A DNA stretch of 64,000 bases. Source: Parahaliea mediterranea (GTDB lineage: Bacteria; Pseudomonadota; Gammaproteobacteria; Pseudomonadales; Halieaceae). The notes below the pieces were generated by a model. That model searched no databases, was not told the origin of the DNA, and saw nothing but the letters and a program-made list of their open reading frames with translations. The DNA is taken from NCBI RefSeq assembly GCF_003402235.1, contig NZ_QEWO01000001.1, forward strand, positions 186,001 through 250,000, in the 5' to 3' direction. Each line of letters starts with the position of its first letter. The stretch's first letter is position 1. The position numbers were made by a program, and so were the translations under genes. Positions 24,256 through 60,905 of the stretch are shown in pieces.

Positions 24256-24311
24256 TTAAAATATGAGGTCGGCGCGCTTTGCCCGTCGACGCAGCCCAAA
24301 AGGAGACCCAC

Positions 24312-25456: not shown

Positions 25457-25550
25457 TAATGCAAAGCGAGTTTTAACGCCTTTGGTCTGGCCAAGCCAGC
25501 CAGGCCAAACCAGCCCGGCGGTGAGTCGGGCGAACCGAGAGAGAGCCACC

Positions 25551-35718: not shown

Positions 35719-36120
35719 ATGTCAGGCACCCAGACCCATTTTGGCTTTAGCAAACTGCTGGTCAACGACCTTGAGGCTGCGGCGGCATTTTATGCCAGCG
35801 TGTGCGGGCTCACCGAATTGGCCCGGGTAGACAGCGAAATTGCCGGACGGCCCATCAGCGAGATTATGTACAACCCCACCGGCGAGGGGGCGGCCACCTT
35901 TGTGCTGCTGCAGTTTACCGACGGGAAAACCCGCGGCAGCGACGAGGTTATCACCGGCTTTCAGACGAATGACCTGGATGCCTTTGTCGCCCGGGTCGAA
36001 CAGGCCGGTGGCAGCGTTGTGGCCCCGATCAAGTCCATGCCGGAACACGGCGTTCGGGTGGCTTTTGTGGCTGACCCGGAAGGGCACCTGATTGAAGTTG
36101 TCGAACTGCTGGCAGGCTGA
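35719..36120 (+). CDS. VOC-family protein (glyoxalase/dioxygenase fold)
   Basis: A 133-residue single-module vicinal-oxygen-chelate protein. It starts FGFSKLLVNDLEAAAAFYASVCGL and ends KSMPEHGVRVAFVADPEGHLIEVVELL, a typical VOC beta-alpha-beta pair; the final Glu and an N-terminal ligand could bind a metal. The MPEHGVRV motif is shared almost exactly with a second VOC gene at 55.2 kb, so these are paralogues. AAGGAAACACT precedes the ATG. It leads a plus-strand operon with a Dabb-domain protein (9-base gap) and an SDR. Function may be lyase, isomerase or dioxygenase; not decidable from the sequence. Confidence 0.85.
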   Translation: MSGTQTHFGFSKLLVNDLEAAAAFYASVCGLTELARVDSEIAGRPISEIMYNPTGEGAATFVLLQFTDGKTRGSDEVITGFQTNDLDAFVARVEQAGGSVVAPIKSMPEHGVRVAFVADPEGHLIEVVELLAG

Positions 36121-44872: not shown

Positions 44873-46498
44873 ATGGTGATGTGCAGGGTAAAGGCGGCCA
44901 TGGCCGGCCTGTTATGTGCAGCGGCCGTGTTGGCCCAGGGTGCGCCCGTGTCACCGTCAGTCGAGGCGTCGCATGTCGTTGCCATGAAACGACTGACCCA
45001 GGGCCAGTACCGCAACAGCATCGCCGATGTCTTTGGCGGCGATATCGAGATTGTCGGCCGCTTTGCGCCAGATTACCGACATGAGCGCTTGCTGGCTGCA
45101 GGCAGCGCCCTGGCCAGCCTGGCCCCCGCCGACTATGAGCAGTACGACCTGATGGCGCGTGAGATCGCCCGCCAGGTGCTCAGCGGCGAGCAGGGCGAGA
45201 AAAACCTGGGGTGTGAACCGCGGCTGACGGCAACGGGTACTGCGAATGACTGTATTGGCCATTTCATCGCGCACTACGGCCTGAAACTGTTCCGACGCCC
45301 GCTGACCGCTACCGAGCAAAGCCAGCGGGAAGCCGTGGTCAGCGAAGTGGTATCACTCGGGGGCAGTGTCAATGACGGGCTGCAACTGGCCCTGGCCAGC
45401 CTGCTGGTGTCGCCGGACTTCCTGTTTCGTATTGAAACAGCACAGCCAGCCAGCAACGGTCAGTGGCAGCTGGACAGCTACTCGCGGGCAGCGCGCCTCA
45501 GCTATTTCCTGTGGAACACCACACCCGATGCCACCCTGTTGCAGGCGGCCCATGAAGACGAGCTGATGCAGCCGGCGGGCCTTAGGCGGCAAGTGGAGCG
45601 CCTACTGGCGTCGCCCCGGCTGGAGCAGGGCATGCGAGCCCTGTTTACCGACATGCTGGCCTTTGATCGCTTTGGCGAGCTGTCCAAGGATGTGGCCCTG
45701 TACCCGGCGTTCACCCCGGCCGTGGCCGATGCCCTGCAGGAGCAGACCCTGCGCACGCTGACCCAGCACCTGCTGGATGCCGGCGGCGACTATCGGGACC
45801 TGTTTGTGCTGGACTGGATGCCGATGAACCGCACCCTCGGGCTCGTGTATGCCGTGCCGGTGCCCTGGGCGAGCGGCTGGCAAACCTATCAATTCGACAG
45901 CGAAGATGAGCGCCAGGGCCTGTTGTCGCAGGTCAGCTTGCTGTCACTGCACGCCCACGCCGGCAGCAGTTCGCCGACCCTGCGCGGGCGTTTTATTCGC
46001 GAAACCTTTCTGTGCCAGCCCATCCCGCCACCGCCAGCGGATGTGGATTTCACACTGGACGAGGCGTTTGCCGTGCTGCCCACCGCCCGTGAGCGCCTGC
46101 AACGCCACCGCAAGGAGAGCACCTGTGCCGCCTGTCATCACCTGATGGACCCGATCGGCCTGACGCTGGAGCACTACGACGGCATCGGCATGCTGCGCTT
46201 GCGCGAGAACGGCAGTCCCATCAATACCGCCGGCGAGCTGGATAGTGTGGCGTTTGAGGGCGCCAGGGGCCTCGGGGCCGCGCTGCAGAACCACCGGCTT
46301 GTGCCGGCCTGCTTTGCCGACACAGTGTATCGCTACGCAGCCAGTGGCACGGAGATTCCGCACGCACGCGACCTGCAGGCGGCGTTGAACGAGGCCTTTG
46401 CCGCGGGTGGCTATCAGCTCCCCGCATTGCTGCGAGCCATCGCCAACAGTCAGTCATTCTACGCAGCCGCCCCGGCGACCGAGGAGGATCAGTCATGA
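44873..46498 (+). CDS. Exported DUF1592-family protein with CxxCH motif
   Basis: 541 residues with a signal peptide (about 1-23, AVLAQGAP). Domain order follows the planctomycete-type family: DUF1595 (FRRPLTATEQ), DUF1592 (LLVSPDFLFRIE, LSYFLWNTTPD), DUF1588 (HAGSSSPTLRGRFIRETFLC and the CAACHHLMDPIGL motif), DUF1585 near the C-terminus. CAACH is a c-type heme attachment motif, though only one occurs and heme binding is not proven. GAGGTGCTGTAAAG precedes the ATG. It overlaps the DUF1552 gene by 4 bases. These proteins are nearly always found in pairs; the biochemical role is unknown, and a periplasmic redox step on the island substrate is a guess. Confidence 0.85.
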   Translation: MVMCRVKAAMAGLLCAAAVLAQGAPVSPSVEASHVVAMKRLTQGQYRNSIADVFGGDIEIVGRFAPDYRHERLLAAGSALASLAPADYEQYDLMAREIARQVLSGEQGEKNLGCEPRLTATGTANDCIGHFIAHYGLKLFRRPLTATEQSQREAVVSEVVSLGGSVNDGLQLALASLLVSPDFLFRIETAQPASNGQWQLDSYSRAARLSYFLWNTTPDATLLQAAHEDELMQPAGLRRQVERLLASPRLEQGMRALFTDMLAFDRFGELSKDVALYPAFTPAVADALQEQTLRTLTQHLLDAGGDYRDLFVLDWMPMNRTLGLVYAVPVPWASGWQTYQFDSEDERQGLLSQVSLLSLHAHAGSSSPTLRGRFIRETFLCQPIPPPPADVDFTLDEAFAVLPTARERLQRHRKESTCAACHHLMDPIGLTLEHYDGIGMLRLRENGSPINTAGELDSVAFEGARGLGAALQNHRLVPACFADTVYRYAASGTEIPHARDLQAALNEAFAAGGYQLPALLRAIANSQSFYAAAPATEEDQS

Positions 46499-47835
46499 GC
46501 AAGAAAGGGCTTACACGGCGCACAGTGCTGCGCGGTATGTTGCAGGGTAGCGCCGTCAGCGTGGCACTGCCGCTGCTGGATGGCTTCCTCAACACCAACG
46601 GGAATGCATTCGCATCGGAGGCGCCGCTGCCCCAGCGTTTTGGCACCTGGTTCTGGGGCTGCGGTATGACGCCGGAGCGCTGGAACCCCGAGGCAGAAGG
46701 TACAGACTTTGCACTACCGCCGGAATTGCAGGCGCTGGCGCGCCACCGGAGGGAGCTGTCGATTTGCAGCGGCTTCAATGTGCACTTGGACAACAAGCCC
46801 AATCAGGTGCATAGCAGCGGGGTGGTTGGCACGCTGACGGGGAACGCACCGAGCGTACCGGATGAGTTTGTCAGCCCCAGTCTGGATGTGCTGGTAGCCG
46901 ATGCCATCGGCAGCCGCAGCCGTTTTCGTTCGCTGGAGGTCGCCGCCAGCGGCGACCCGAGGCACAGTTACAGCCGGCGCAGCAGCAGTGTAATCAACGC
47001 CGCCGAAGTGTCGCCAGTGGCGTTTTACCAGCGGATATTCGGCACCGGCTTTCAGGACCCGAACGCCCGCAACTTCCAGCCCGACCCGCAACTGATGATG
47101 CGCCGCAGCGTGCTCTCGGCCGTTAAAGAAGACCGCCAGCGCCTGATGCGCCAGCTGGGGGCCGGCGACCGGGTTCGGCTGGACCAGTACTTCACTGCCG
47201 TGCGCCAGGCCGAGCAGCAACTGGACATCATGCTGAGCGAGCCAGAGCCGCTGGCCAGCTGCCGCGTGCCAGACGTGCCGGAAGCGAGCGCCACCGACAC
47301 CGAGATCGACGTGGTGGATCGCAACCATCGCCTGCTGGCCGAGTTGATGGCCCTGGCTGTGGCCTGCGACCAGACCCGCGTGTTCAACGTGGTTTACTCG
47401 CCGGGTGCCTCTAACCTGCGGCGTGGGGGCAGCACCGCCAATCACCATCAGCTGACCCATGAAGAATCCGTGGACCCAGCCCTGGGGTACCAGCCACAGG
47501 CCACCTGGTTTGTGGAGCGCAGCATGCAGGCCTTCGCCCACTACCTGGACATACTCAAGGCAGTACCGGAAGGGGATGGCACGCTGCTGGATAACTGCCT
47601 GGTGCTGGCCCATTCGGAAACCTCCCTGGCGAAAACCCACGATGTCAGCGGTTTGCCACTGATGCTCGCTGGCCGCGCCGGCGGCAAGGTACGTAGCGGG
47701 GTGCACGTTATGGGCCGCGGCGATGCAGTAACGCGGGTGGGGCTTACCGTTCAACAGGTGATGGGCCTGCCGGTGGCGCAGTGGGGTACACGCTCCATGC
47801 AGACCGACCGCCCGGTAAGCGAGGTGCTGGTATGA
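46495..47835 (+). CDS. Exported DUF1552-family protein (Tat-type signal)
   Basis: 446 residues. The N-terminus KKGLTRRTVLRGMLQGSAVSVALPLLDG has the twin-arginine RR and a hydrophobic stretch, indicating Tat export as a folded, perhaps cofactor-containing protein. The body matches DUF1552, including FGTWFWGCGMTP, HSSGVVGTLTGNAPS and the C-terminal VLAHSETSLAKTHDVSGLPLMLAG. The gene overlaps the DUF1592 gene at its start (ATGA) and the next gene at its end (ATGA), so three exported proteins are made in a block. The DUF1592/DUF1552 pairing is widespread in Planctomycetes and some proteobacteria, with no settled function. Confidence 0.86.
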   Translation: MSKKGLTRRTVLRGMLQGSAVSVALPLLDGFLNTNGNAFASEAPLPQRFGTWFWGCGMTPERWNPEAEGTDFALPPELQALARHRRELSICSGFNVHLDNKPNQVHSSGVVGTLTGNAPSVPDEFVSPSLDVLVADAIGSRSRFRSLEVAASGDPRHSYSRRSSSVINAAEVSPVAFYQRIFGTGFQDPNARNFQPDPQLMMRRSVLSAVKEDRQRLMRQLGAGDRVRLDQYFTAVRQAEQQLDIMLSEPEPLASCRVPDVPEASATDTEIDVVDRNHRLLAELMALAVACDQTRVFNVVYSPGASNLRRGGSTANHHQLTHEESVDPALGYQPQATWFVERSMQAFAHYLDILKAVPEGDGTLLDNCLVLAHSETSLAKTHDVSGLPLMLAGRAGGKVRSGVHVMGRGDAVTRVGLTVQQVMGLPVAQWGTRSMQTDRPVSEVLV

Positions 47836-48956
47836 AACGGGTAACTTTTACCAGACATGGCCTGGGTGGCGGATTGGCGGCGTTGCTGTGCGCCATCTCG
47901 TTAGCGGTGCAGGCACTGCCCGATGGCAGCGAAGTCAGCGATATCGTGCAGCGCGGTTACGTACTGACGGATTTTCGCCTGGTGACCCCCGGCGCTGGCC
48001 CCAACGACTGCCCCGATGGCTTCAACCTCGGCTATTCGCAGCGCTTTCTGGCGGCCCTGCCGGAGGCCGAGCGCCAACCCTACCTGGATGACCCCCAACT
48101 GCTACAGCAGGCGTTGGCGCCCTGGTACTACGACGACCCGGAACAGGACCCCTGTGCCAACCCCGCCAACTTCCCCGACACCGGCATGCTGACAATAGAC
48201 GGCCCGCTGGCCATGCAGCGCATGGAGGCCGACGGCAGCATCAGCGAGACAACCGCGCCCCCCAGCGCCTGCCCGGCAGCGAGTGCGGCCAATGAGGCTC
48301 GCACCATCGACAACCAGTACTGGCGGGTCATGGGTTGCGTGCGCGGTTACCAGCCCACCGGCCAGGCGGCGGCCTTTGCCAATTCCTTCATTACCGATGG
48401 CAGTATGACCGTTTTATTGCAGGTAACGCCGCTGGACGAAGACAGCGGCGCGGTAGAAGTGCTGCTGGCGTCCAGCCAGACCCCGGTTACGCTTGGCACC
48501 AATGGTGCACCGCTACCCTGGGCCAGCCTGCCGCTGGCCGCTGATACGCGCTATCACAATCGCGTGCGAGGGCAACTGGATGATGGCGTGCTGGTGACCG
48601 AGCGGTTTGACCTGCGCATCATCCGCGCCGCCCAGCGGCTGGACAGCGAACTCTACCTGCGCGATGCGATGCTGCGTTTGGAGATTGACCCGGACACCGG
48701 CAACGCCAGTGGCCTCCTGGCTGGTTACTGGGATCTCGATTCCCTGGCGCATTCATCCATTCGCATACAGGACCGCACCGGACTGTCGTCCGGCAAACCG
48801 GCGGCGGATACCCACGGCTATACCTGCCCGGGCAAGTACTACGCAGTAAAGCGCCTGGCGGACGGCAATCCGGACCCGGCAACCGGCGAGTGCACCTCTA
48901 TCTCGGTGCTGCACAGCCTGCAGGCGGTGCCGGCGTTCGTGGTGGCCAATCCCTGA
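47832..48956 (+). CDS. Secreted protein of unknown function, third member of the DUF1592/DUF1552 operon
   Basis: 374 residues with a signal peptide (about 1-32, ending SLAVQA). The ATG at 47832 overlaps the DUF1552 stop as ATGA; a longer frame starts inside DUF1552 and is not used. I recognise no named domain. The mature part has three Cys-containing loops (NDCPDGFN, DPCANPAN, SACPAASA), aromatic/Asp-rich segments and a C-terminal beta region (VTERFDLRIIRAAQRLDSELYLR), consistent with a disulfide-stabilised extracytoplasmic binding protein. Its fixed place after DUF1552 suggests it binds the same substrate. No function is asserted. Confidence 0.7.
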   Translation: MKRVTFTRHGLGGGLAALLCAISLAVQALPDGSEVSDIVQRGYVLTDFRLVTPGAGPNDCPDGFNLGYSQRFLAALPEAERQPYLDDPQLLQQALAPWYYDDPEQDPCANPANFPDTGMLTIDGPLAMQRMEADGSISETTAPPSACPAASAANEARTIDNQYWRVMGCVRGYQPTGQAAAFANSFITDGSMTVLLQVTPLDEDSGAVEVLLASSQTPVTLGTNGAPLPWASLPLAADTRYHNRVRGQLDDGVLVTERFDLRIIRAAQRLDSELYLRDAMLRLEIDPDTGNASGLLAGYWDLDSLAHSSIRIQDRTGLSSGKPAADTHGYTCPGKYYAVKRLADGNPDPATGECTSISVLHSLQAVPAFVVANP

Positions 48957-48995: not shown

Positions 48996-49835
48996 TCAGT
49001 CCCCGTCGATAACCTGGGGCGGGGCCTCGCCACCAAGGAAGTTATTGATCGCGTGCTCCGCCATGTAGCGAATCAGGTCTTTTTTGGGTATCTGCAGCAT
49101 ATTGTCGGCATTGGCCCGGTGGTTTTTGCCGGCAATCAACAGGGGCTGCTGCCCCAGCGCCGCCATGGCCTCGTCCACCAGTTCGGTGGTGGTCTGGAAC
49201 TGAGAGCGATCCTCAATGTGCTCAAAGCCCGCCGCCGCGGTTGATAAGGTCATGCCGGCGGCAACTGCCAGTACGTCCACATTGTAGGGGGCAAACTCGC
49301 CCCACAAGGCCTCGCCCAGGGCGATGTCGTAGGCCTTGGTGGCGGAGTAGTGGGCGTAGTAGGGCGAGCCAGTCAGGCCGGCACCGGATGACATCAGCAC
49401 AATGCCGCCACGCCGGCGCGCCAGCATGGCCTTGCCGAAATGATAGATGAGCTTGAGTGGCCCGGTGACATTAACGGCAATTTTCTTCAGCTCGAAGTCC
49501 AGCCCGGAATCTGCTTTGTAGAACGGCCCGACATCCGCCAGGCCCGCGTTGTACACCAGCAGCCCGACTTCCCGCTTGCCGACTGCCGCGCGGATCACCT
49601 CCAGCATATCGTCGCCGGCGAGGTCGACCTCAACCGGCAGGCACTGCACGCCAAATTCCTCGCGCACGCTGGCGCTGATGGCGGCGAGGGCGTCGGCGGA
49701 AATATCCAGCACCATCACATTGACACCGCGCGCGGCAATATAACGAGTATAGGCTTCGCCGATACCCTGGGCGCCCCCGGCAATCACTGCCCAGGGGCCG
49801 TAGCTGGCCTCAAAACCCGCGTTATCTGTGCTCAT
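48996..49835 (-). CDS. Short-chain dehydrogenase/reductase
   Basis: A 279-residue SDR. The NAD(P) motif GGAQGIGEAY, NAG at LVYNAGLADVG, the serine in LMSSGAGLTGSP and YSATK are all present. It starts at 49835, one base after the TGA of the upstream 2OG-like gene on the same strand, so it is co-transcribed with it; a longer frame overlaps that gene and is not used. The pairing of an SDR with a putative oxygenase fits hydroxylation followed by alcohol oxidation. It converges with the DUF1592 operon across 39 bases. Confidence 0.88.
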   Translation of the reverse strand: MSTDNAGFEASYGPWAVIAGGAQGIGEAYTRYIAARGVNVMVLDISADALAAISASVREEFGVQCLPVEVDLAGDDMLEVIRAAVGKREVGLLVYNAGLADVGPFYKADSGLDFELKKIAVNVTGPLKLIYHFGKAMLARRRGGIVLMSSGAGLTGSPYYAHYSATKAYDIALGEALWGEFAPYNVDVLAVAAGMTLSTAAAGFEHIEDRSQFQTTTELVDEAMAALGQQPLLIAGKNHRANADNMLQIPKKDLIRYMAEHAINNFLGGEAPPQVIDGD

Positions 49836-49836
49836 A

Positions 49837-50922
49837 TCAGGCCGCGTCCGTGTACATAGGGGTAACAGGCGCATCCTCGGGGTAGCTGCTGGGGCCGCCC
49901 ATGTCGTAGGCGGCGTTGAGCTGGGCGATAAAGGTGGCGTCGTGCAGCGGGTCGGTGGGCGTCTCGATGCTGATACCCTGTGCGCGCACATCGTCGATCA
50001 TCATCTCGATGGCCTTTTCGTGGGTCAGGTCGTCACTGCCGTCCATGTTCTTCTTCAACTCATCGAAGTCCTCGAACACCTCGGCGGACCAGTGCACCAG
50101 AAAGCGCAGCTCATCAGTGCTGTGACGGGCGATCACATTGTCGCCGGTTTTCAGCAGCCATTGGTTGGTGTCATTCGGATCACCCGAGAACAGGGTGTCG
50201 AAGGCCAGCCCCTTCGGCCGCTGTTGCTCCAGCGGGCCGTTGGCCTCGCCGCGGTGGAACATCATTTCGTTCTGCACCAGCACACCGCGGTTGTAGATGG
50301 GTGGCATAAGGCGCTCTGGTGCTTCCAGCGGGCCGTTTGGCCAGTAGGTAAAGCCGCTCTGTGGGCAGTGGGAGAACCAGGTAATCACCTGGGCCATCTT
50401 GATCAGGTAATCCTGGAACAGGCCAGACTTGCCCATCACCGCACACAGCCAGGTGGGGGTATTTTCGTAGCGCACACCGCGAAAGCTGGGGCTGTCCAGG
50501 TGGCCCGGGTCCAGGTTGCCCGCGGGGCCGTTCACGTTGAACAGCATCATCTGGGGCTTCGCGTACTTGGCGCCCCAGTAGTCCTTGGCCATATTCAGGA
50601 AGGTTTCGTTGTAAAAGCAGTCATGAATTTCGGGGTAAAGCGGGGCCGAGTAATTGGCCAGAAAGCCGCGGAAGGTCGGCGTGATGAACATATCGAGCGA
50701 CAGGCCACCGCCGTCCGGTGCGCCGCCCGACAGGGTTGCGATCAGCTCTTCGGCAGAGGCAAAGTGCTGGGCGAGAATCAGCGGCCAGGGGCCGTTGTCG
50801 CGCATTACGCCAAGCAGGCGCTGCAACTGATCTTCACTGTAAACATTGCTCACCTCGCGCGGCGGCGCCGCCGGGCGCAGGATGCGGGAAAGTTCTTCGC
50901 GGCGTTGTTGGGTCATGGCCAT
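49837..50922 (-). CDS. Putative non-heme Fe(II)/2-oxoglutarate-type oxygenase, paralogue A
   Basis: 361 residues, no signal peptide, no family name recognised. A facial-triad candidate is visible: His141-x-Asp143 (GHLDSPSFRG) and a distal His223 (NEMMFHRGEANGP), about 80 residues apart as in jelly-roll dioxygenases of the PhyH type. About half the residues match the divergent gene at 51.25 kb, and the HxD and MMFH motifs are conserved there. The start at 50922 follows AAGAGGTTATCCC. It is in operon with an SDR. A copy of the shared box lies upstream (50991-51004). Iron-dependent hydroxylation is inference from residue pattern alone. Confidence 0.65.
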   Translation of the reverse strand: MAMTQQRREELSRILRPAAPPREVSNVYSEDQLQRLLGVMRDNGPWPLILAQHFASAEELIATLSGGAPDGGGLSLDMFITPTFRGFLANYSAPLYPEIHDCFYNETFLNMAKDYWGAKYAKPQMMLFNVNGPAGNLDPGHLDSPSFRGVRYENTPTWLCAVMGKSGLFQDYLIKMAQVITWFSHCPQSGFTYWPNGPLEAPERLMPPIYNRGVLVQNEMMFHRGEANGPLEQQRPKGLAFDTLFSGDPNDTNQWLLKTGDNVIARHSTDELRFLVHWSAEVFEDFDELKKNMDGSDDLTHEKAIEMMIDDVRAQGISIETPTDPLHDATFIAQLNAAYDMGGPSSYPEDAPVTPMYTDAA

Positions 50923-51253
50923 GGGATAACCTCTTGAATGACTGCAGTAGTCCTGCCGACTTGCGCGCAGGTGCCAGGTAAAGTTCAATATCTTATCGAT
51001 AAAATAAACAGGTGCGCAACAGCGCGGGCCCATATTCCTGAGGCTTCTTTCAATGCCTGTTTTTGAGGCGGGTATATATTGGCTAACCCGTCGGGCGCAT
51101 ATCGCTGCAGCGCCCCCTCGGGCTTGACGCGCCGATCGGCCCAAACCTATGCTTAGTATTAAAGTATCAATAAAATAAATAGTGCGGCGGTGATTGGGTG
51201 GGCGCTCAGGCCTGTTCCCTCAATCTGCAATCACCGCCAAAGGAGGAGTCATC
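50923..51253. promoter_or_regulatory. Divergent regulatory region of the paralogous oxygenase pair, two shared boxes
   Basis: The 331 bases between the two divergent paralogues hold no gene. Box 1, TCTTAT-CG-ATAAAA (50991-51004), faces the minus-strand gene; on that strand it reads TTAT-CG-ATAAGATA and overlaps a -10-like TAAGAT, with TTGCGC 18 bases upstream. Box 2, GTAT-CA-ATAAAATAAAT (51164-51180), faces the plus-strand gene. One site per promoter suggests coordinate control. Confidence 0.55.
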
Positions 51254-52312
51254 ATGGATATCGAACGCGCCAAGGTCTTTCGCCCGGTGGCAGAGCCCAG
51301 AATCATTGAGGGGGTTTACAGCGAAGACCAGCACCAACGGCTTTTGGACGTGGTGCGCCGCAATGGCCCGTGGACGCTTATTATTTCCCAGCATTTCAAA
51401 TCCGCCGAGGAATTGATCGCCACCACCTCCGGCTCTCTTCCGGAGGGGGTTGAGCCCAGCCTGGATATGTTCCTGAGTCCAGTGTTCCGGGGCTACTTTT
51501 CTCACGGGGGTGTGTGCAGCCAGCCTGAAATCGAGGACTGCTTCTATAACCCCGCGTTTCTGAAGCTGGTGCGCGACTACTGGGGGGCGAAGTACGCCGA
51601 GCCGGACAGCATGCTGTTCAATATCCAGGGGCCCAGCCAGGACAGCGGCAACCCGCATGTGGATGGCACACGGTTTCGCGGCCTGACCATCGAGAACACG
51701 CCAATCTGGCTGATGAACACCATGGTCAAGTCCGGCCTGTTCAAGCGCTGGCAGGCTCGCAAGGCCCAGGTGATCGCCTGGTACTATCGGGGCAAGATCG
51801 GCGGCGGCTTTAGCTACTGGCCGGATGGCCCACACCTGCAGCCAAAACAGATACAGGCGCCCATGTGGGGGCGTGCCGTGGTGGTAGAGAACGAGATGAT
51901 GTTCCACACCGCCCAGAGCTGTGGCCCCAAGGCCATGAGAAAGCCTGAGGGCCTGGCCTTTGACTCGGTGATGGAGGCAGACCCCAGTGTCGAGGGCGGC
52001 TGGCGCATTCGCACCGGCGACAGAGTCATCCAGCAGATACCCGAGGCGGAGTTCCGTTTTCTGGTGCACTGGGGCGCCAATGTCTACATGGATCTGGACG
52101 AGTTGAAACGCACCGTTGATCACACCGACGACATTACCCACGACCAGGTCTTCGATATTTTTATTCAGGACTTGAAGGCGCGGGGAGAGCACTTCGACAT
52201 GCCCTCGGACCCGTTGACCGACAAGGCGTTTATCGGCCTGCTCACCCGTGTCTACCATGTGGGTACGCCGCTGTACTTCCCGCCGGAGCCAGAGGACGGC
52301 ATCGCAGCCTAA
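51254..52312 (+). CDS. Putative non-heme Fe(II)/2-oxoglutarate-type oxygenase, paralogue B
   Basis: 352 residues, paralogous to the divergent gene at 49.8 kb. The same motif set is present: His135-x-Asp137 (PHVDGTRFRG) and distal His218 (NEMMFHTAQSCGP), with the shared segments NGPWTLIISQHF, SLDMFLSP and FRFLVHWGANVY. AGGAGGAGTCATC is a strong ribosome site before ATG 51254. It leads a plus-strand operon: this gene, an MFS transporter, a 3-hydroxyisobutyrate-dehydrogenase-like protein, an AA_synth protein and a VOC protein. Substrate unknown; a hydroxylase of the island substrate is the simplest inference. Similar proteins would normally be annotated hypothetical. Confidence 0.65.
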   Translation: MDIERAKVFRPVAEPRIIEGVYSEDQHQRLLDVVRRNGPWTLIISQHFKSAEELIATTSGSLPEGVEPSLDMFLSPVFRGYFSHGGVCSQPEIEDCFYNPAFLKLVRDYWGAKYAEPDSMLFNIQGPSQDSGNPHVDGTRFRGLTIENTPIWLMNTMVKSGLFKRWQARKAQVIAWYYRGKIGGGFSYWPDGPHLQPKQIQAPMWGRAVVVENEMMFHTAQSCGPKAMRKPEGLAFDSVMEADPSVEGGWRIRTGDRVIQQIPEAEFRFLVHWGANVYMDLDELKRTVDHTDDITHDQVFDIFIQDLKARGEHFDMPSDPLTDKAFIGLLTRVYHVGTPLYFPPEPEDGIAA

Positions 52313-52362
52313 CACAAGTCCGCCTGCTTTTGCCGCTGGCGCTACGCCAGGGAGGCTGTAAC

Positions 52363-53601
52363 GTGCCCAACAACAGCGCATGGCCCTGGATACAGGTTGC
52401 CGTAGCCTTTCTCATGCACGCGACCGGCGCTGGCGTCCTGTCCTATTCCTACAGCGTGATTGCCATACCCCTGGCGGAGGCCTACGCACCGAGTCGCATG
52501 GTGCTGATGCTGGGCCTGACGTGCATGACGCTGGGTGCCGGGGTGATTTCGCCCGCTGCAGGTATTGCGGTTGATCGCTATTCACTGCGTAACATCCTGA
52601 TTGCGGCCCTGTTGATAACGGCGGTGGGGTTTGTGGGTCTTTCGTTGACCCGTGCCATGTGGCAGGTACCGCTGATCTACGGCCTGTGCCTGAGTGCCGG
52701 CTATACCCTGCTGGGGCCACTGTGCGCATCCACCCTGTTGGCGCGGTGGTTTACCACCAACCGCGGCATCGCCCTGGGCATTGCCGCGGCGGGCACCTCC
52801 TTCGGCGGGTTCTTCTATCCCCCGTTCATTCAGTGGCTGGCCGACACGGTGGGCTGGCGTGACGGGCTGAGGGTGATCGCTGTGTGCATTGCCTCCATGG
52901 CCGTCCCGGTGTGGTTGTTGATAGTGGATCGGCCGCAGCAGAAGGGCTATGTGCCGCCCGAAGAAAAGGGCGGCGGCGCCCAGCACACCCAGGGGCATTT
53001 CAGCTCCACCCACGCCATCATTCGCCACCGCAGCTTTTGGCTCATCGCCCTGGTGGTCAGCGTCATGTTCGCCTGCTTCACTGCCACCATGGGCAATCTC
53101 ATGCCCTTTGTGATTGAGACCGGCGCCAGCCGGGATCAGGGCACGCGGATTATCGCCAACATCGCCCTGGCGGCCATTCCTGGCACGCTGCTGTTCGGCT
53201 GGCTGGCCGACCGCTGCGATGTGCGGCTTGTCCTTGGCGGCATCATCGGGCTGATTGCCACCGGCATTGGCTGCTTCTGGGGTGTGCCGGATACCTGGCG
53301 ATTGACACTGGGCAGCCTGGTCCTTGGCCTTGGCGGGGGCGGTATGTTGCCGGTGTGGAGCGCCCTGCTGGCCGGCACCTATGGCGCGCTCAATTACGGC
53401 AGGGTTATGGGGCTGATGAGCCCCATCCTGTTGCCCCTGAACCTGATAATGCCGCCCTTTACCGGCTGGATTCGCGATGTTTCCGGCAGTTATCACTGGG
53501 CCTTTGTGCTGTTTGCGGGGCTGCTGATGCTTTCTTTGGTGCTGATACCGCTCATCCGCAACGCAGCGCCCAACCAGGCAGGCCAGCATGCCCTGGCCTG
53601 A
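52363..53601 (+). CDS. Major facilitator superfamily transporter
   Basis: A 412-residue MFS permease with about 12 predicted helices. The A-type motif after TM2 is recognisable (GIAVDRYSLRN), and the second half repeats it as GWLADRCDVRL. The profile resembles the oxalate/formate-antiporter-like MFS branch. The start is GTG 52363 with CAGGGAGGCTG upstream; a TTG eleven codons earlier is less likely. It follows paralogue B by 50 bases and precedes the dehydrogenase by 13. Moving a carboxylate intermediate or the island substrate over the inner membrane is inferred. Confidence 0.9.
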   Translation: MPNNSAWPWIQVAVAFLMHATGAGVLSYSYSVIAIPLAEAYAPSRMVLMLGLTCMTLGAGVISPAAGIAVDRYSLRNILIAALLITAVGFVGLSLTRAMWQVPLIYGLCLSAGYTLLGPLCASTLLARWFTTNRGIALGIAAAGTSFGGFFYPPFIQWLADTVGWRDGLRVIAVCIASMAVPVWLLIVDRPQQKGYVPPEEKGGGAQHTQGHFSSTHAIIRHRSFWLIALVVSVMFACFTATMGNLMPFVIETGASRDQGTRIIANIALAAIPGTLLFGWLADRCDVRLVLGGIIGLIATGIGCFWGVPDTWRLTLGSLVLGLGGGGMLPVWSALLAGTYGALNYGRVMGLMSPILLPLNLIMPPFTGWIRDVSGSYHWAFVLFAGLLMLSLVLIPLIRNAAPNQAGQHALA

Positions 53602-53614
53602 ATCGGAGCGTTTA

Positions 53615-54553
53615 ATGACAGAATCTTCCCACCTGCGCACTGGCCGTCTGGTTGGTTTTATTGGCCTTGGCAAAATGGGTGAACCCATGGCCTGTCAGTT
53701 GGCCCGGGGGACGGTGGCAGGCGTCAAAGTGTTTGACGCGGACCATGCGCACGCCGCGCAACTTGCCAAAAACAGTGGCAAGACCATGCAAGCCGTTACC
53801 TCCCTCGACGCGCTGGCCGACTGTGACCTGGTAATAACCATGCTGCCCAACAGCCAGGTAACCTCGGCGGTGATAGCCGGTGAAGGCACCTCGCTTTGCC
53901 AGGTACTTCGGCCAGGGGCAACGATTGTCGATATGGGGTCTTCAGACCCCAGTGAAACCCGACGCTTGCATGCCGTGCTGAACGAGAAGGGGATGTCATT
54001 GCTGGATGCTCCCGTGTCCGGTTCGGTCGCCAAGGCGGAGACGGGGCAACTGTCGATCATGGTGGGTGGCGACAGTGAGACGCTCAAGCGGGCGCGGCCG
54101 GTGCTGGCCTGTATGGGCAGCGTCATCATTCCCACTGGCAGGGTTGGTTCGGCCCATGCGATGAAAGCCCTGAACAATTACGTTTACGCGGCTGGCCTGC
54201 TGGCCAGTTGCGAGGCCCTGCTGATGGCCCAGCAGATGGACCTTGATCTCGAAGTGTTTGTCGACATTCTGAATGCAGCCAGTGGCAGGAATGTGGCCAC
54301 GGAAACCAAGCTGTGCCAATTCATCCTGTCTGGCAGCTTTTCCGGCGGTTACGCCCTGGCGCTGCAGCATAAAGATCTGGGTGTGGCCAGCCAGCTGGCT
54401 GAGCGGGCGGGTTTGGCCCTGCCGCAATTGGCCATGGTTGAGTCCCTGTGGGCCAACGCCGCCCAGAGCCTGCCACCGCAGGCAGACAACACCGAGATAT
54501 TCAATTTTCTCAAACAACACCAGCAGCATTCAGAAGGGGAGGACACCGCGTGA
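53615..54553 (+). CDS. 3-hydroxyisobutyrate-dehydrogenase-family NAD(P)-dependent oxidoreductase
   Basis: A 312-residue beta-hydroxyacid dehydrogenase. GFIGLGKMGEPMA is the N-terminal nucleotide motif, DAPVSGSVAKAETGQLSIMVGG the substrate-binding signature and MKALNNYVYAAGLLASCEALL carries the catalytic lysine. The start at 53615 has AATCGGAGCG upstream. It overlaps the next gene by 4 bases (GTGA), and the preceding MFS gene is 13 bases away. It would oxidise a 3-hydroxy acid or its homologue, a typical late step in branched-compound catabolism. The substrate is not fixed by the sequence. Confidence 0.88.
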   Translation: MTESSHLRTGRLVGFIGLGKMGEPMACQLARGTVAGVKVFDADHAHAAQLAKNSGKTMQAVTSLDALADCDLVITMLPNSQVTSAVIAGEGTSLCQVLRPGATIVDMGSSDPSETRRLHAVLNEKGMSLLDAPVSGSVAKAETGQLSIMVGGDSETLKRARPVLACMGSVIIPTGRVGSAHAMKALNNYVYAAGLLASCEALLMAQQMDLDLEVFVDILNAASGRNVATETKLCQFILSGSFSGGYALALQHKDLGVASQLAERAGLALPQLAMVESLWANAAQSLPPQADNTEIFNFLKQHQQHSEGEDTA

Positions 54554-55134
54554 GCAATCTGGTTGCCATTCGCAAGCGAGCACTCAGCACAGAAACCATC
54601 TTTCACGAAGGTGGCCCCGTCACCGACACACCGCTGACGATGGCGGCGGCAACGGCGGTGATTCGCAACCCTTTTGCCGGCCGCTATGAAGCAGACCTGA
54701 TGCCCTTCATGTCGGAACTGCGCGCACTTGGCCGCGAACTGGCAGAAGAACTGGTGGTTACGCTTGGTGGCAGGGAGCGCGTGGAGGTGTACAGCAAGGC
54801 GGCCATCGTCGGCATCAACGGTGAAATGGAGCACGGTGCCGTGTGGCACGAAGCGGGGGGCTGGGCCATGCGCGAGGTGCTTGGCCAGCCCAAGGCCATG
54901 GTGCCGGCCAACAAAGCGGTGGCGTGCGCGGGCTATCGCATGATGGTGCCTGTTCACTATATCCACGCAGCCTTTGTGCGCAGCCACTTCAATTCCATGG
55001 AGGTTGGCCTGCAGGACGCTCCACGGCCGGATGAAATCCTTTTCTCGCTGGTCATGGGCACCGGGGGCAGGGTGCATTCGCGCCTTGGCGGTTTACTCAA
55101 GGACGAGGTGGAGGGGCTGGACGGCCTGCGCTGA
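54550..55134 (+). CDS. AA_synth family protein (PF06684-like), unknown function
   Basis: A 194-residue protein matching the amino-acid-synthesis (AA_synth) family, whose name reflects early annotation rather than known chemistry. Visible landmarks are IRNPFAGRYEADL near residue 40, KAAIVGINGEMEHGAV and a C-terminal HYIHAAFVRSHFNSMEV with PRPDEI. The start is GTG 54550 overlapping the upstream stop as GTGA (GGGGAGGACACC before it), so it is translationally coupled to the dehydrogenase. Family members often sit beside catabolic hydroxyacid genes; lactonase-like or isomerase activity is a guess. No signal peptide or transmembrane segment. Confidence 0.8.
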   Translation: MSNLVAIRKRALSTETIFHEGGPVTDTPLTMAAATAVIRNPFAGRYEADLMPFMSELRALGRELAEELVVTLGGRERVEVYSKAAIVGINGEMEHGAVWHEAGGWAMREVLGQPKAMVPANKAVACAGYRMMVPVHYIHAAFVRSHFNSMEVGLQDAPRPDEILFSLVMGTGGRVHSRLGGLLKDEVEGLDGLR

Positions 55135-55183: not shown

Positions 55184-55591
55184 ATGGCAGATAAACCCCG
55201 ATCCTTCTTTACCAAGCTTATTGTCGGTGATGAAGAGCGCATGGCGGCCTATTACATGGCGGTGTACGGCCTGCAGGAAGTGGCGCGCGTTGCCGGAGAC
55301 AGCGGCGGGCTGGGCGAACCCTTTCGGGAGGTTATCCTCGGCACCAGCGCCAGCATGCAGGGCGAGACGCTGGTGATGTTCAATTTCCTCGATCGCCCCA
55401 AGCCACGCGACCAGCAGGTCATCCTCGGCTTTGTGTGTGACGACCTGGAAGTCGTGCGCCAGCGCATTCTCGACAACGGCGGCAGCACCGTGGGCGATAT
55501 CAAGGACATGCCAGAACACGGCGTGCGGGTGCTGTTTGCCACAGACCCGGAAGGCGCGCTCAGCGAAAACGTACAGTTGCTGGGGTCCTGA
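55184..55591 (+). CDS. VOC-family protein, paralogue of the 35.7 kb gene
   Basis: A 135-residue VOC protein. It begins FFTKLIVGDEERMAAYYMAVYGLQEVARV and carries KDMPEHGVRVLFATDPEGALSENVQLL, the same motif as the VOC gene at 35.7 kb. It ends the five-gene operon starting with oxygenase paralogue B, after a 49-base gap with AGCAAGGAAACCAC before the ATG. Metal-binding residues are plausible but not verified. Two VOC paralogues each located in an oxygenase/dehydrogenase operon suggest parallel steps or two branches of one pathway. Confidence 0.86.
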   Translation: MADKPRSFFTKLIVGDEERMAAYYMAVYGLQEVARVAGDSGGLGEPFREVILGTSASMQGETLVMFNFLDRPKPRDQQVILGFVCDDLEVVRQRILDNGGSTVGDIKDMPEHGVRVLFATDPEGALSENVQLLGS

Positions 55592-55784: not shown

Positions 55785-57722
55785 ATGAATCAGATACCAA
55801 CGATCCGCAGTACCGCCAACACGCCCGAAGGTGTGCTGCCCATCCGCGACCACGCCGGCCTGCGGGAAATGCTGACAGCGGGCGATATACCCACCCTGTT
55901 GATGGTCTACGTTCACTTGGGTGGGGATGAGTCGCTGTTGCAGCGCTACTCACCCCACATCAAATCCATGATGCAGGGTGGGGCAGCCGTGCCAGAGGCG
56001 CTGGCCGAGGACCTGCGCGAACGCCTGTTCACGCTGCTGACCAGGGAGCCCCCGCTGGCGGCCAGAGAGCCAGACACCAAAGCGATGCAGCGCATGATGA
56101 GTGTTGCCGTTGGCGAGCCCGTTGATGATGAGTTTGTGCCCCTGGTCCTGGAGCAATCCGGCTTTACGCATATCCCCGGAAAGGATGCCGTTCCCTACCA
56201 GAAGCCGCCGGCCGACTTTCGTGTGCTGATAATTGGCGCTGGCCTTACCGGCATCAATGCCGGTGTCCGCTTTGCGGAGGCGGGGTATGAATACGACATC
56301 ATCGAGCGTAACCCCGAGGTGGGGGGCACCTGGTTCCACACCCGCTACCCGGGCTTGGCGGTGGATACACCAAGTCACTACTACTCCTTCTCCTTTGAAC
56401 TGAACGGCGACTGGACGCACTGGTTCTCGCGCGGGCCGGACAACCAAAAATACCTGGTGCACTGCGCGCACAAATACGGTGTGCGGGACCGGGTTATCTT
56501 CAACACCGAGGTGGTCTCCTGCACCTGGAACGAGGCAAGCGAGGTGTGGGAGGTGCGCACGCGCGCCCGCGAGGATGGCCGTGAGGAGCTGAGGCACTAC
56601 CACGCCATCATGACCGCCGCTGGCTTCAGCACCCGCCCCAAGCCCTACAACATCGCCGGCCACGAGAGCTTCCGCGGCACCAAGATGCACACCGCCCGCT
56701 GGGACGACAGTGTGGATCTGGCCGGCAAGCGCGTAGCGGTGATAGGCACCGGCGCCAGCTCCATGCAGGTGTCGCCGGAGATGGCGAAGATCGCCAGCCA
56801 GCTCACGGTGTTCCAGCGCTCCAAGCACTGGGTGATGCCGGTGGCCAACCTGAACGACGAGATTCCCGAGGCCCAGGCGCGCGCCATGCGCGAAATACCG
56901 CACTACGCCCAGTGGTGGCGCCTGCAAACCTACTGGAATGCCTCCGACAACTGGTACAACAACGTGCTGATTGACCCGCACTGGCACCTGCCTGATGTCT
57001 CCGTCAACGCCACCAACGAACAGATTCGCCAGTACTTGCTGGGCTACATTGACGAGCAGCTGGCCGACCGTCCGGACCTGAAAGACAAGGTCACACCGGA
57101 CTATCCCCCAGGCGCCAAGCGCTTCTGCATGGATAACGGCTGGTTCGACATGCTCAAGCGGGACAATGTCGCCCTGGAGACCGACGGTATCGAGCAGATT
57201 GTCGAGGACGGCATTATTACCCGCGACGGGCGGCTCATCGAAGTCGACGTGATTATCTTCGCTACCGGGTACATGCACGCCAAGATGCTGTCCACCGTTG
57301 AGATTGTTGGCCGCGATGGCGTGAGCATCCGCGATGTCTGGGGAGAGGAAGACCCACGCGCTTACCTGGGCTTGCTGGTGCCGGGCTTTCCCAACCTGTT
57401 TGTTGGCTCAGGGCCGAACAGCGCCCCCAATCACGGTGGCGGCGTCAATATTCTGGCGGAAAGCCAGATTCACTACATTCTTGCCAGCCTGGATTTGCTT
57501 CACCAGCGCGGCGGCACGGCGCTGGAAATCAGCGAAACGGCCCACGACAACTACAACCAACAGCTGGATGCCAAGCTGGAGCAGATGATCTGGGGACATC
57601 CCCGCGTAAACAGCTACTACCAGAACAGCAAGGGGCGCTTGTACCTGTCTAGCCCCTGGCGTCTGGTGGACTACTGGAATATGACGCGCTCACCAGAGCC
57701 GGCGCATTTCACGCTCCGCTGA
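55785..57722 (+). CDS. Baeyer-Villiger-type flavin monooxygenase, paralogue of the 25.6 kb gene
   Basis: 645 residues, identical in length to the first monooxygenase and clearly paralogous, with the same 145-residue N-terminal extension (PIRDHAGLREMLTAGDIPTLLM). The FAD motif is GAGLTG (151-156), the fingerprint FxGxxxHxxxWD is intact at 296-307 and the NADPH motif GTGASS is at 321-326. The ribosome site before the ATG is weak (AGAAAGCAACC). It has its own box upstream and is followed by a TonB-dependent receptor after 76 bases. Two such enzymes may attack two ketones of one polycyclic substrate or two related substrates. Confidence 0.9.
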   Translation: MNQIPTIRSTANTPEGVLPIRDHAGLREMLTAGDIPTLLMVYVHLGGDESLLQRYSPHIKSMMQGGAAVPEALAEDLRERLFTLLTREPPLAAREPDTKAMQRMMSVAVGEPVDDEFVPLVLEQSGFTHIPGKDAVPYQKPPADFRVLIIGAGLTGINAGVRFAEAGYEYDIIERNPEVGGTWFHTRYPGLAVDTPSHYYSFSFELNGDWTHWFSRGPDNQKYLVHCAHKYGVRDRVIFNTEVVSCTWNEASEVWEVRTRAREDGREELRHYHAIMTAAGFSTRPKPYNIAGHESFRGTKMHTARWDDSVDLAGKRVAVIGTGASSMQVSPEMAKIASQLTVFQRSKHWVMPVANLNDEIPEAQARAMREIPHYAQWWRLQTYWNASDNWYNNVLIDPHWHLPDVSVNATNEQIRQYLLGYIDEQLADRPDLKDKVTPDYPPGAKRFCMDNGWFDMLKRDNVALETDGIEQIVEDGIITRDGRLIEVDVIIFATGYMHAKMLSTVEIVGRDGVSIRDVWGEEDPRAYLGLLVPGFPNLFVGSGPNSAPNHGGGVNILAESQIHYILASLDLLHQRGGTALEISETAHDNYNQQLDAKLEQMIWGHPRVNSYYQNSKGRLYLSSPWRLVDYWNMTRSPEPAHFTLR

Positions 57723-57798: not shown

Positions 57799-60504
57799 AT
57801 GACAACGATCGCCTTTGCCTTAACATCCCCCCAACCCCGAGCGGCTATCACTCCCAGGCGTTTGCCACTTGCCATACAGTCCCTGGCGGCAAGCTTCGCA
57901 CTGGCGGCACCCCTTGTGGGCACGCCTGCCCAGGCGCAGGAAGTCGGGCGCCTGGAAGAGGTGATTGTCACCGCCCAGCGGCGCCAGGAAAGCATCCAGG
58001 ATGTGCCCATTGCCATTAGTGCGCTGGACAGCGATGCGCTGCGCAAGCAGAACATCAAAAATCCCTACGACCTGCTGGGCAAAGTGCCGTCGTTGAACGT
58101 GTCCAGCTCCGGTAACCCGCGCAACGCCGAGGTGGTGACCATTCGCGGGCAGGGGGCAACCTATCTGGCGCCGGTGGGCGTGGTAAATTATTTCGCCGAG
58201 GTGCCGCTGATTCAGTCTGGCATTATCGCCAACCAGGGCGGCCCCGGCACCTGGTTTGACCTCAGCTCACTGCAGGTGCTGCGTGGCCCGCAGGGTACAC
58301 TGTTTGGCCGCAACACCACCGGGGGCGCTTTGCTGCTGGAGCCAAAGCAGCCGAATGAAGTGCTGCATGGCTACCTTCAGGCCCAGGCCGGCAATTATCA
58401 GGATCGCGAATACGAAGGGGCCATCAACATCCCAGTCATCGACGACACCCTGATGGTTCGCGCCGCCGTGCAGCGAGTGAAGCGCGACGGGTTCACTGAA
58501 GACGTTGGCCCCAACCCCTTTGGCTACAACGATGTGTGCCTGCCCACCGCCCAGCCCCTGTGCGCGGCCTTTGCGCCGGGCGAGCGCGGCCCCGGCTTTG
58601 CCGGCAAGGACTACGACAACAAGGACTATTGGCATGCCCGGGTCGGCGTGCTGTGGCGCCCCACTGATCGCATTGAGAACTATCTGGTGATGCTGCGCTC
58701 GGTTTCTGAAGACAACGGGACGGGGTTTGTTTTCAGCGGTGCCGGAGACGGCCCGAATGTTGCCAACCTGTCCGGCAATATGGCCTACGGTGCTGGCAAT
58801 GTACTGGCGGGCAACGTGTTTGACCCTACCATTACCCAGGGCATTTTGGCGGTGCAAAAGCAACTGGGCGAGCGCAAGACGGCGATGAATACCGACCAGT
58901 TCACGCGTATCGAACACGAGGCCTACATTAACAAACTGTCCTTCGAACTGAGCGACAACCTGCAGGTTCGCAACATCATCAGCTACCAGGAAATGGACCT
59001 GGACTACGACTGGGATCTGGATGGCACATTGCTGCCAATGCTGGCCCAGATCAACTCCTACATTCTGGAGAACGACAACAGCAATCCCTATGGCGCGGCG
59101 GGCGAGGAGGGCTCCATCTCCAACAGCAGCCAGACCACCTTCGAGCTGCAACTGCAGGGCACGGCGCTGAATGACGATCTGGACTATGTCCTTGGCACCT
59201 ACTACGCCAAGGTGGAGCCGGAAGGTCTACAAGGCACCGGCTCTTTCAACGCCGCCAGCCTGAATACCGGGACGTTCTACGAACAGGAAATTACCGCACT
59301 GGCCTTTTACTCCCAGGGCACACTGAACATGGGCGCCTTTAGCGACAGCCTGGATGACTTCCGCCTGACGATTGGCGTGCGCCATACCGACGATGAAACC
59401 GACGCCTCGAGATTCACCAGTAATTTCTATTCCGACCGTGTCTACAGCTCGCCCACCGAATACGAGCTGGCCCTGCGCGAAGCGCGCCAGCAGAGCAAGG
59501 AGTGGACCTGGACCATCGGACTTGATTACCAGCTGAGTGATTCTGCGCTGTTCTATGGCAAGGTGACCCGTGGCTACAAAGCGGGCGGCTTCAACTACGC
59601 TGCCCCGCGGCAACTGACCTACGAACCGGAACTGGTCACCAGCTACGAGCTGGGCATGAAAACCGATTTCGCCCTGGGCACAGTGCCGGCGCGCTTGAAC
59701 CTGAACCTCTACAGCATGGATTACGACGACATCCAGCGTGCCTCGGCGGATAACTTCCCCATTGGTAACTTCCTGCCGGACGCCAATGACTTTAACGGCA
59801 ACAGCAGCACGGAAGACTTTGTGTGCACCGGCCCCAACGGTGAGGATTTTTCTGCTAACGCAACCTGCCTGGACCAGGGGGCCGTGACCTTCAACGCCGA
59901 TTCAGCCCGTATCCAGGGTGTCGAACTGGAGGCGAGTATCGCTCCTTTCGAGAATGTCGAAATCGCCTTCAATTATTCGTATACCGATGCCGAGTACCGC
60001 GATTACGACCTGACCATCTACGCGGATCCACTGCGTGGCGGCTCCACCATGTTCCCTTGCGATGGCCCGCTGACGGTGCCCTCGGTGGGGCAGGCCGATG
60101 TGGTGGCGGATTATTCCTGCATACCGTTCCAGAATACGCCGGAACATATCGCGTCGCTCAACTTCAACTATTTCCTGCCACTGGGTGAGAACCTGGGAGA
60201 CCTTGAGTTCTTCGCCAGCGTCAACTACCAGGGCGAAACCTACTCATCGGCAACTACCTCGCCCCTGGATGACCCGGGCGCCTGGATTGACGACTACACC
60301 ACCGTGAACCTGTCAATGGAATGGAACCGCCTGTTCGGCAGCAATCTCGACGCCAGGGCTTTTGTCACCAACGCCACCGATGAAACCTACGCCATCAACG
60401 AGTACGTGGGCTTGCGCCAGTCGTCGGGCTTTACCAACACGGTGTACGGCGAGCCTCGCATGTACGGCATTTCACTGCGCTATCGTTTTGGGGATGAACA
60501 GTGA
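57799..60504 (+). CDS. TonB-dependent outer-membrane receptor, second copy type
   Basis: 901 residues. A long signal region (about 1-48, ending TPAQAQ) leads to LEEVIVTAQRRQESIQDVPIAIS and a plug with QVLRGPQGTLFGRNTTGGALLLEPKQP. The barrel ends GISLRYRFGDEQ. It differs from the 38.5 kb receptor, sharing only family motifs. TTTAGAGGACACATA precedes the ATG, and the gap to the monooxygenase upstream is 76 bases, so co-transcription is likely. Having two receptors in the island suggests uptake of more than one glycoside or an outer-membrane step for both intact and trimmed substrate. Confidence 0.92.
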   Translation: MTTIAFALTSPQPRAAITPRRLPLAIQSLAASFALAAPLVGTPAQAQEVGRLEEVIVTAQRRQESIQDVPIAISALDSDALRKQNIKNPYDLLGKVPSLNVSSSGNPRNAEVVTIRGQGATYLAPVGVVNYFAEVPLIQSGIIANQGGPGTWFDLSSLQVLRGPQGTLFGRNTTGGALLLEPKQPNEVLHGYLQAQAGNYQDREYEGAINIPVIDDTLMVRAAVQRVKRDGFTEDVGPNPFGYNDVCLPTAQPLCAAFAPGERGPGFAGKDYDNKDYWHARVGVLWRPTDRIENYLVMLRSVSEDNGTGFVFSGAGDGPNVANLSGNMAYGAGNVLAGNVFDPTITQGILAVQKQLGERKTAMNTDQFTRIEHEAYINKLSFELSDNLQVRNIISYQEMDLDYDWDLDGTLLPMLAQINSYILENDNSNPYGAAGEEGSISNSSQTTFELQLQGTALNDDLDYVLGTYYAKVEPEGLQGTGSFNAASLNTGTFYEQEITALAFYSQGTLNMGAFSDSLDDFRLTIGVRHTDDETDASRFTSNFYSDRVYSSPTEYELALREARQQSKEWTWTIGLDYQLSDSALFYGKVTRGYKAGGFNYAAPRQLTYEPELVTSYELGMKTDFALGTVPARLNLNLYSMDYDDIQRASADNFPIGNFLPDANDFNGNSSTEDFVCTGPNGEDFSANATCLDQGAVTFNADSARIQGVELEASIAPFENVEIAFNYSYTDAEYRDYDLTIYADPLRGGSTMFPCDGPLTVPSVGQADVVADYSCIPFQNTPEHIASLNFNYFLPLGENLGDLEFFASVNYQGETYSSATTSPLDDPGAWIDDYTTVNLSMEWNRLFGSNLDARAFVTNATDETYAINEYVGLRQSSGFTNTVYGEPRMYGISLRYRFGDEQ

Positions 60505-60772: not shown

Positions 60773-60905
60773 AAAAATATCGCACAGAGGGTGGCTGCTC
60801 ACCTGCTCGTGAGTGATAATGACTGAACATGATCGGCCGTGAGCCACAGAGCGCTTGCGAACAGACTGCGGCCGGTCGGCAATGCCATCATCAGGAGGCC
60901 GTTCA

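Follow-up and report, generated by a model that had tools for sequence, protein, structure and literature searches.

We analysed a 64,000-nucleotide stretch of the Parahaliea mediterranea genome (contig NZ_QEWO01000001.1, positions 186,001 to 250,000; hereafter the window, with positions counted from its first letter), in which two related genes point away from each other across a short promoter region. The source genome (5.09 Mb) belongs to the same taxonomic family as Haliea and carries two copies of this gene family, whose products we call proteins A and B:

49837 to 50922, minus strand: protein A, candidate Fe(II)/2-oxoglutarate (2OG)-type oxygenase, 361 residues; proposed iron ligands H141, D143 and H223, proposed 2OG-binding arginine R273
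51254 to 52312, plus strand: protein B, paralog of A, 352 residues; corresponding residues H135, D137, H218 and R268

The initial annotation had described a divergent pair of paralogs with about half of their residues in common, and this was borne out at exactly these coordinates: in a single BLASTP comparison 164 of 340 residues were identical (48%, with 66% similar; E 5e-126). It had also pointed to GHLD or PHVD followed by FRG, and to NEMMFH after a gap of about 80 residues. Both features are present, as GHLDSPSFRG in A and PHVDGTRFRG in B with NEMMFH in each, and the Asp of the HxD motif is separated from the distal His by 80 residues in A (D143-H223) and 81 in B (D137-H218). Protein A is 76-91% identical to its Halieaceae relatives and 66-70% identical to relatives on sphingomonad plasmids, and B is 86% identical to its Haliea ortholog.

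The proposal that the pair belongs to no named family held as well, since neither A nor B matched a Pfam family at E<=1 or an NCBIfam family at E<=0.1. Against the PDB sequences, phmmer returned 1 row up to E 10 and a profile search 3, and no title among these rows was that of an oxygenase of the class. PhyH (PF05721) and the Pfam TauD family gave no match at E<=1 in A, B or 28 family members. The gathering cut-off of PF13640 (27 bits) was reached by 0 of the 28 members, and A and B did not match this profile at E<=1; six of the 28 did so weakly (best E 6e-4, 21.2 bits). In all five distant members checked, the HxD motif fell on PF13640 profile position 15 (counted gap-free from the match start), the same position as in five true members. 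On 22 plasmid records with a relative of B, the best-matching gene was annotated as 'hypothetical protein' in 18, no gene was listed in two and two records were unannotated. In the portions of the open-access literature that were covered, we found no name for the A/B family and no published link between it and Baeyer-Villiger enzymes or rhamnosidases.

The fold was predicted with confidence. The AlphaFold model of A had a mean predicted local distance difference test score (pLDDT) of 92.7 and a predicted template modelling score (pTM) of 0.90, and that of B had scores of 91.0 and 0.88. In a structural comparison of the kind suggested at the outset, both models were double-stranded beta-helices and, for A as well as for B, Fe(II)/2OG oxygenases made up 50 of the 50 PDB rows among the matches listed by VIA-align 2. 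The best rows among those listed were 6eoz for A (Z 12.1, 3.7 Å, 192 residues) and 5ep9_C for B (Z 12.4, 3.6 Å, 181 residues), and the closest folds among the matches listed were AsqJ, OkaE, SnoN, PHD2 and prolyl 4-hydroxylase (P4H). Foldseek returned 28 PDB chains for A at E<=1e-3, whose titles name a 2OG oxygenase, AlkB or a prolyl hydroxylase in 25 cases and a direct DNA repair protein, which we take to be ALKBH2, in the remaining three. None of the structural rows listed (Foldseek for A, VIA-align 2 for both proteins) was TauD, to which A and B may nonetheless be related.

The residues expected at the active site are conserved without exception. Among the collected loci there were 76 distinct family proteins; H141, D143 and H223 (A numbering) were kept in 75 of the 75 that cover those columns, and R273 was kept in 74 of 74; the proteins not counted are two fragments in which the relevant columns are missing. 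In an alignment of 28 members, down to ∼21% identity, the invariant columns included H141, D143, R148, G149, H223, W255 and R273, and the HxD...H triad was likewise invariant in alignments of 28, 38 and 37 rows. In the model of A, H223 lies on a strand and R273 opens strand 273-283; between them is an insertion that holds strands 243-248, 251-259 and 262-268. R273 in A and R268 in B stand at the start of the last long strand, 50 residues past the distal His. In Fe(II)/2OG oxygenases 2OG is held at the last long strand. Because of the predicted fold together with these invariant residues, A and B are very probably Fe(II)/2OG-dependent oxygenases, and the facial-triad reading of the initial annotation is supported at this level. 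By sequence they define a new family of an already known superfamily, and an unusual insertion precedes the Arg. On Sphingobium plasmids, we also observed tandem family genes that are 41% alike (L115:9989-12177 and L116:9989-12200); the second copy has NQHMFH and WRG instead of NEMMYH and FRG, with the triad and the Arg retained.

The family is strongly linked to Baeyer-Villiger monooxygenases (BVMOs). Across 20 genomes or records, 34 of 69 long-form BVMO genes lay within 10 kb of a family gene, with 1.5 expected, and 29 of 48 small vicinal oxygen chelate (VOC) genes did so, with 1.4 expected. The expectations assume random placement and catabolic genes cluster anyway, so short genes of the flavin-containing monooxygenase (FMO) type served as the control; 3 of 35 of these lay within 10 kb, with 0.45 expected. 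Seen from the other side, 38 of 70 family genes had a long BVMO within 10 kb. The 70 family genes comprise 57 of 61 matches (four second pieces of broken genes were dropped) and 13 others, and the monooxygenase rows comprise 104 of 107 matches (three pieces were dropped), with five shorter ones that lack the full N-terminus counted as long. Identity distances between family genes and between their neighbouring BVMOs were correlated (r 0.68, 16 pairs, 0 of 10000 permutations), a value that still includes shared species history. A role of the A/B family in catabolism is highly likely, and we consider it fairly probable that the family acts together with the Baeyer-Villiger enzyme.

The distribution of the family is patchy. 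It was found in 24 of 145 near genomes (source genome included), eight with close members and 16 with only 22-31% identical ones. Evenly drawn samples gave hits in 2 of 369 genomes for the class and in 1 of 398 for the phylum with the source genome counted in each, or 1 of 368 and 0 of 397 without it, in tallies that scored at most five candidates per genome and could have missed members. Another 31 named loci come, among others, from Haliea, Halioglobus, Sphingobium, Novosphingobium, Sphingopyxis and Azospirillum, as well as from one metagenome-assembled genome (MAG) of Myxococcota and two actinobacterial MAGs. Certain bacteria of soil and sea carry the family in many gene places: Novosphingobium sp. 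Chol11 has 13, Sphingobium OAS761 has 9 and S. quisquiliarum has 7, with fragments included in the counts for the two Sphingobium genomes. Broken family genes with internal stops were seen beside intact ones (G028:C4:286724-287748 and NZ_CP030354.1:396149-396729), a sign of gain and loss.

In a tree of 46 rows, four sequences from the taxonomic family of the source genome grouped with A, and the group of B held Haliea and Pseudomonadales MAGs, among others; A and B were not sisters, and their clades were well supported. By identity, and outside this tree, A-like (67-70%) and B-like (62-69%) relatives occurred on the same sphingomonad plasmids, for instance ∼20 kb apart on pNL2 of N. aromaticivorans. 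A recent local duplication is ruled out by these separate clades and by the co-occurrence on plasmids. Because A and B fall into different clades and their relatives share plasmids, they represent, on the comparison of their sequences, two old separate lineages side by side. One actinobacterial MAG has its own head-to-head pair of family genes (L061:2825-5055), and the divergent layout may therefore have arisen more than once.

Each of the two promoters had been said to carry a shared box, and two copies of a 17-base box, TATCRATAAAATAAAYA, do lie between the genes, one by each start:

50994 to 51010, plus strand: first copy of the box, 71 bases between box and A start codon
51165 to 51181, plus strand: second copy of the box, 72 bases between box and B start codon

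The box occurs exactly twice in the 64 kb (0.04 expected), a number reached in 0 of 100 shuffles. The second copy begins just past a weak σ70-like site (51124-51153; one found, 0.3 expected). Both copies are on the plus strand and so face opposite ways relative to their genes, and we saw no conservation of the box; these two points correct the earlier description. A 15-base core was found in 4 of 114 loci, all four of them the A/B place itself, and TATCNATA was absent from the 300 bases upstream of eight other family genes (two of the starts were a few codons off). The box as a family-wide operator is thus unsupported.

The genes around A and B are the following:

24279 to 25304, plus strand: alpha/beta hydrolase (esterase-like), A island
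25482 to 27488, plus strand: long-form Baeyer-Villiger-type monooxygenase 1
30351 to 32476, minus strand: adjacent acyl-coenzyme A (CoA) dehydrogenase pair (small subunit 30351-31319, large subunit 31319-32476)
35719 to 36117, plus strand: small VOC protein 1
38486 to 40909, plus strand: TonB-dependent receptor 1
41120 to 44323, plus strand: alpha-L-rhamnosidase of glycoside hydrolase (GH) type GH106 (PF17132, E 4.3e-51)
44873 to 48956, plus strand: three genes for a DUF1592-type (PSD4/PSCyt3), a DUF1552 and an unknown protein
48999 to 49835, minus strand: short-chain dehydrogenase/reductase (SDR; PF00106, E 2.6e-33), directly downstream of A, its inferred start one base past the A stop
52330 to 53601, plus strand: major facilitator superfamily (MFS) transporter (PF07690), downstream of B
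53588 to 54553, plus strand: 3-hydroxyisobutyrate-dehydrogenase-like protein (PF03446/PF14833)
54448 to 55134, plus strand: PF06684 (AA_synth) protein, which probably starts further in than given here; 77-79% identical in Haliea
55184 to 55591, plus strand: small VOC (glyoxalase-type) protein 2
55785 to 57722, plus strand: long-form Baeyer-Villiger-type monooxygenase 2
57799 to 60504, plus strand: TonB-dependent receptor 2
60855 to 63101, plus strand: bifunctional rhamnulose-1-phosphate aldolase/dehydrogenase (NF006189, 1048.8 bits against a cut-off of 634)

Two paralogous gene sets meet at the A/B promoter region. Judged by gene order, each family gene could head its own operon, A with the SDR and B with the MFS transporter and dehydrogenases, as had been proposed. 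A homolog of the SDR (82%) adjoins the A ortholog in a second genome of the genus (G001), and a homolog of the MFS transporter (67%) adjoins the B ortholog in Haliea sp. EAC94 (G018); by the B ortholog of H. salexigens (G028) the transporter was not found. The A set consists of 14 genes: A itself, the esterase, the BVMO, two SDRs, a TetR protein, a CoA ligase, the VOC protein, a Dabb protein, the TonB receptor, the GH106 rhamnosidase and the DUF1592-type, DUF1552 and unknown proteins. In this comparison, which leaves out the acyl-CoA dehydrogenases, relatives of 14 of the 14 were present in the A regions of two other Halieaceae (G046 and G083) and of 11 of the 14 in a shorter one (L059). GH106 was kept in all three, where the DUF1592-type/DUF1552/unknown block also stands beside GH106 and A. 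The B set (MFS transporter, 3-hydroxyisobutyrate-dehydrogenase-like protein, PF06684 protein, VOC protein, BVMO and TonB receptor) has relatives of all its members in the island of Haliea sp. EAC94; there the relative of BVMO 2 (81%) is 61 kb from the B ortholog. The PF06684 gene sits between the dehydrogenase and VOC genes of the B island. To the right of the window, ∼21 kb from B, we noted a third pair of VOC and long-form BVMO genes (G000:C11:259494-261859), with no family gene nearby.

These islands and their relatives offer clues to the substrate. An 89% homolog of the rhamnulose aldolase adjoins the A ortholog in G001. On a plasmid of Novosphingobium sp. ES2-1 an A-type gene is near a GH3 gene and a GH78-type rhamnosidase, the latter without significant similarity to the GH106 enzyme of the window, and on the P6W plasmid rhaT and a rhamnulose-aldolase gene lie ∼8 and ∼12 kb, respectively, from a family gene. 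The link of the family to rhamnosidases is suggestive, and we give some preference to a rhamnoside as the substrate of A. Adjacent acyl-CoA dehydrogenase pairs occur near A-type genes in the P6W, ES2-1 and S. herbicidovorans plasmids (59-62% identical to the pair of the window in the large subunit and 34-35% in the small one). For each subunit of the window's pair, the two best PDB matches were two chains of the same complexes, 4x28 and 6wy8/6wy9. A review (PMC8399759) calls an acyl-CoA dehydrogenase of Thermomonospora bile-acid specific; judging by their Tcur names, 6wy8/6wy9 would be this enzyme. Long BVMO 2 matched phenylacetone monooxygenase (E 1e-59) and steroid monooxygenase (E 1e-56). 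Among the carriers of the family are degraders of bile salts (Chol11, PMC5754482), of saponins (RC1, PMC10653915) and of abscisic acid (P6W, PMC6938937), and the steroid degraders named in the literature include Halieaceae and Novosphingobium (PMC5790920). That family genes are part of the bile-acid cluster of Chol11 was not established. These clues point to cyclic and probably isoprenoid substrates; we see an even chance that the ring is terpenoid or steroid-like.

On this basis we lean towards a scheme in which A and B are 2OG oxygenases that, with the SDR, would make cyclic rhamnoside aglycones ready for Baeyer-Villiger cleavage. Iron would be held by the His-x-Asp and the distal His in the jelly-roll fold and 2OG by the conserved Arg past the long insertion, and O2 and 2OG would be converted to succinate, CO2 and an oxidised, most simply hydroxylated, substrate. 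In aerobic catabolic islands, A and B might thereby hydroxylate a ring carbon of a cyclic hydrophobic compound. The neighbouring SDR would oxidise the hydroxyl to a ketone, which the long-form BVMO of the island would turn into a lactone or ester, and esterase, CoA ligase, acyl-CoA dehydrogenase and thiolase could finish the carbon skeleton. The substrate of A, at least in the source genome, may enter as a rhamnoside via the TonB receptor and be trimmed by the rhamnosidase, with the aldolase cluster burning the rhamnose. We infer the substrate, rhamnoside and terpenoid or steroid-like in kind, and the reaction, including the use of 2OG, the hydroxylation and the order of steps.

Several observations weigh against this scheme. 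On the enzyme side, H223 and R273 are 50 residues apart, compared with 9 for the corresponding residues in a local PF13640 protein, and the assignment of R273 as the 2OG ligand therefore rests on its strand position. When profiles were compared directly, local PF13640 proteins gave only weak scores (E 0.07 local, 0.011 forced global), although H223 was aligned with the distal His, as was HxD with HxD in the global form. Two further entries of the Foldseek list for A are chains from an RNA-editing complex of trypanosomes (E 2e-3 and 6e-3). On the side of the islands, 32 of the 70 family genes had no long BVMO within 10 kb. Within the A regions read, G046 and G083 showed no acyl-CoA dehydrogenase pair; no GH106 was found in the regions read of G001, G018 and G028, and no rhamnulose aldolase in those of G046, G083, G018 and G028. 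Steroid-named NCBIfam hits (7beta-hydroxysteroid dehydrogenase, BaiB, CasG, IpdE2, EchA19-type and steroid thiolase) were all below cut-off, and dioxygenase, monooxygenase and oxoglutarate are not mentioned in the main text of the study on tomatine (PMC10653915).

Could the data be explained differently? The substrate might be a flavonoid or other polyphenol rhamnoside instead of a terpenoid or steroid-like one, as the rhamnosidases near A-type genes and the match of long BVMO 2 to phenylacetone monooxygenase would allow; this is doubtful, as the closest matches of the acyl-CoA dehydrogenase pair are heteromeric enzymes of the steroid type and the carriers include the degraders of bile salt, saponin and abscisic acid. 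A second alternative keeps the enzyme class and places the reaction on a CoA thioester in beta-oxidation, as in phytanoyl-CoA hydroxylase, and not on a ring before the Baeyer-Villiger step. The window island does contain CoA ligases, the acyl-CoA dehydrogenase pair, hydratases and a thiolase, and such a pair is near A-type genes on three plasmids, but the lack of a Pfam PhyH match and the strong BVMO and VOC linkage make this unlikely. Still less likely is a different type of 2OG reaction, be it desaturation, epimerisation, ring expansion or ring closure, of the kind known from AsqJ, SnoN and AndA: the near folds include AsqJ, SnoN (titled epimerase), SnoK (titled carbocyclase) and AndA, but neighbours at Z ∼11-12 and 8-14% identity do not carry the reaction type, and the hydroxylases P4H and PHD2 score equally. 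Finally, it is very improbable that the proteins have kept fold and triad in non-catalytic, binding or regulatory roles, for which one could cite the presence of at least two copies in some islands and the tandem copies in Sphingobium, because no family protein covering these columns has lost the triad or the Arg, a conservation that pseudoenzymes would not be expected to show.

Degraders of steroids, saponins and further cyclic natural products are known among the sphingomonads and Halieaceae, and their pathways still have steps without known genes. For such steps the A/B family, which reaches 13 places in one genome and is tied to Baeyer-Villiger enzymes and rhamnosidases, is a candidate set. 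Naming it as a 2OG oxygenase family would give a testable function to genes that are now 'hypothetical'.

How do A and B compare with known systems? Proteins of the PF13640 (2OG-FeII_Oxy_3) or prolyl-4-hydroxylase type, such as P4H and PHD2, share with A and B the fold (Z 11-12), FRG-like residues after HxD, a distal His and an Arg that precedes the last strand, but the A/B family has ∼40 extra residues between the distal His and the Arg, and we saw no pointer to a protein substrate. AsqJ, OkaE, SnoN, AndA and PrhA are among the best structural matches listed (Z 11-12 over ∼180-206 residues), whereas their identity to A and B is 8-14% and A and B have no Pfam PhyH match. These enzymes act on polycyclic small molecules in a biosynthetic setting, while the setting of A and B is very probably catabolic. 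With TauD (taurine dioxygenase) the triad is common at the level of the superfamily, but A and B do not match the Pfam TauD family. The steroid and bile-salt clusters of sphingomonads and Halieaceae share with the family its bacterial groups (Chol11, Novosphingobium, Halieaceae) and with the A/B islands the SDRs, TonB receptors and acyl-CoA dehydrogenase pair, whereas the window has no steroid-specific ring gene by an over-cut-off match. The published ring oxygenases of those clusters are reported to be Rieske and flavin enzymes. As a tentative proposal, the new family may open polycyclic terpenoid or steroid rhamnosides via ketones for partner BVMOs, unlike the Rieske/flavin 9,10-seco pathway.

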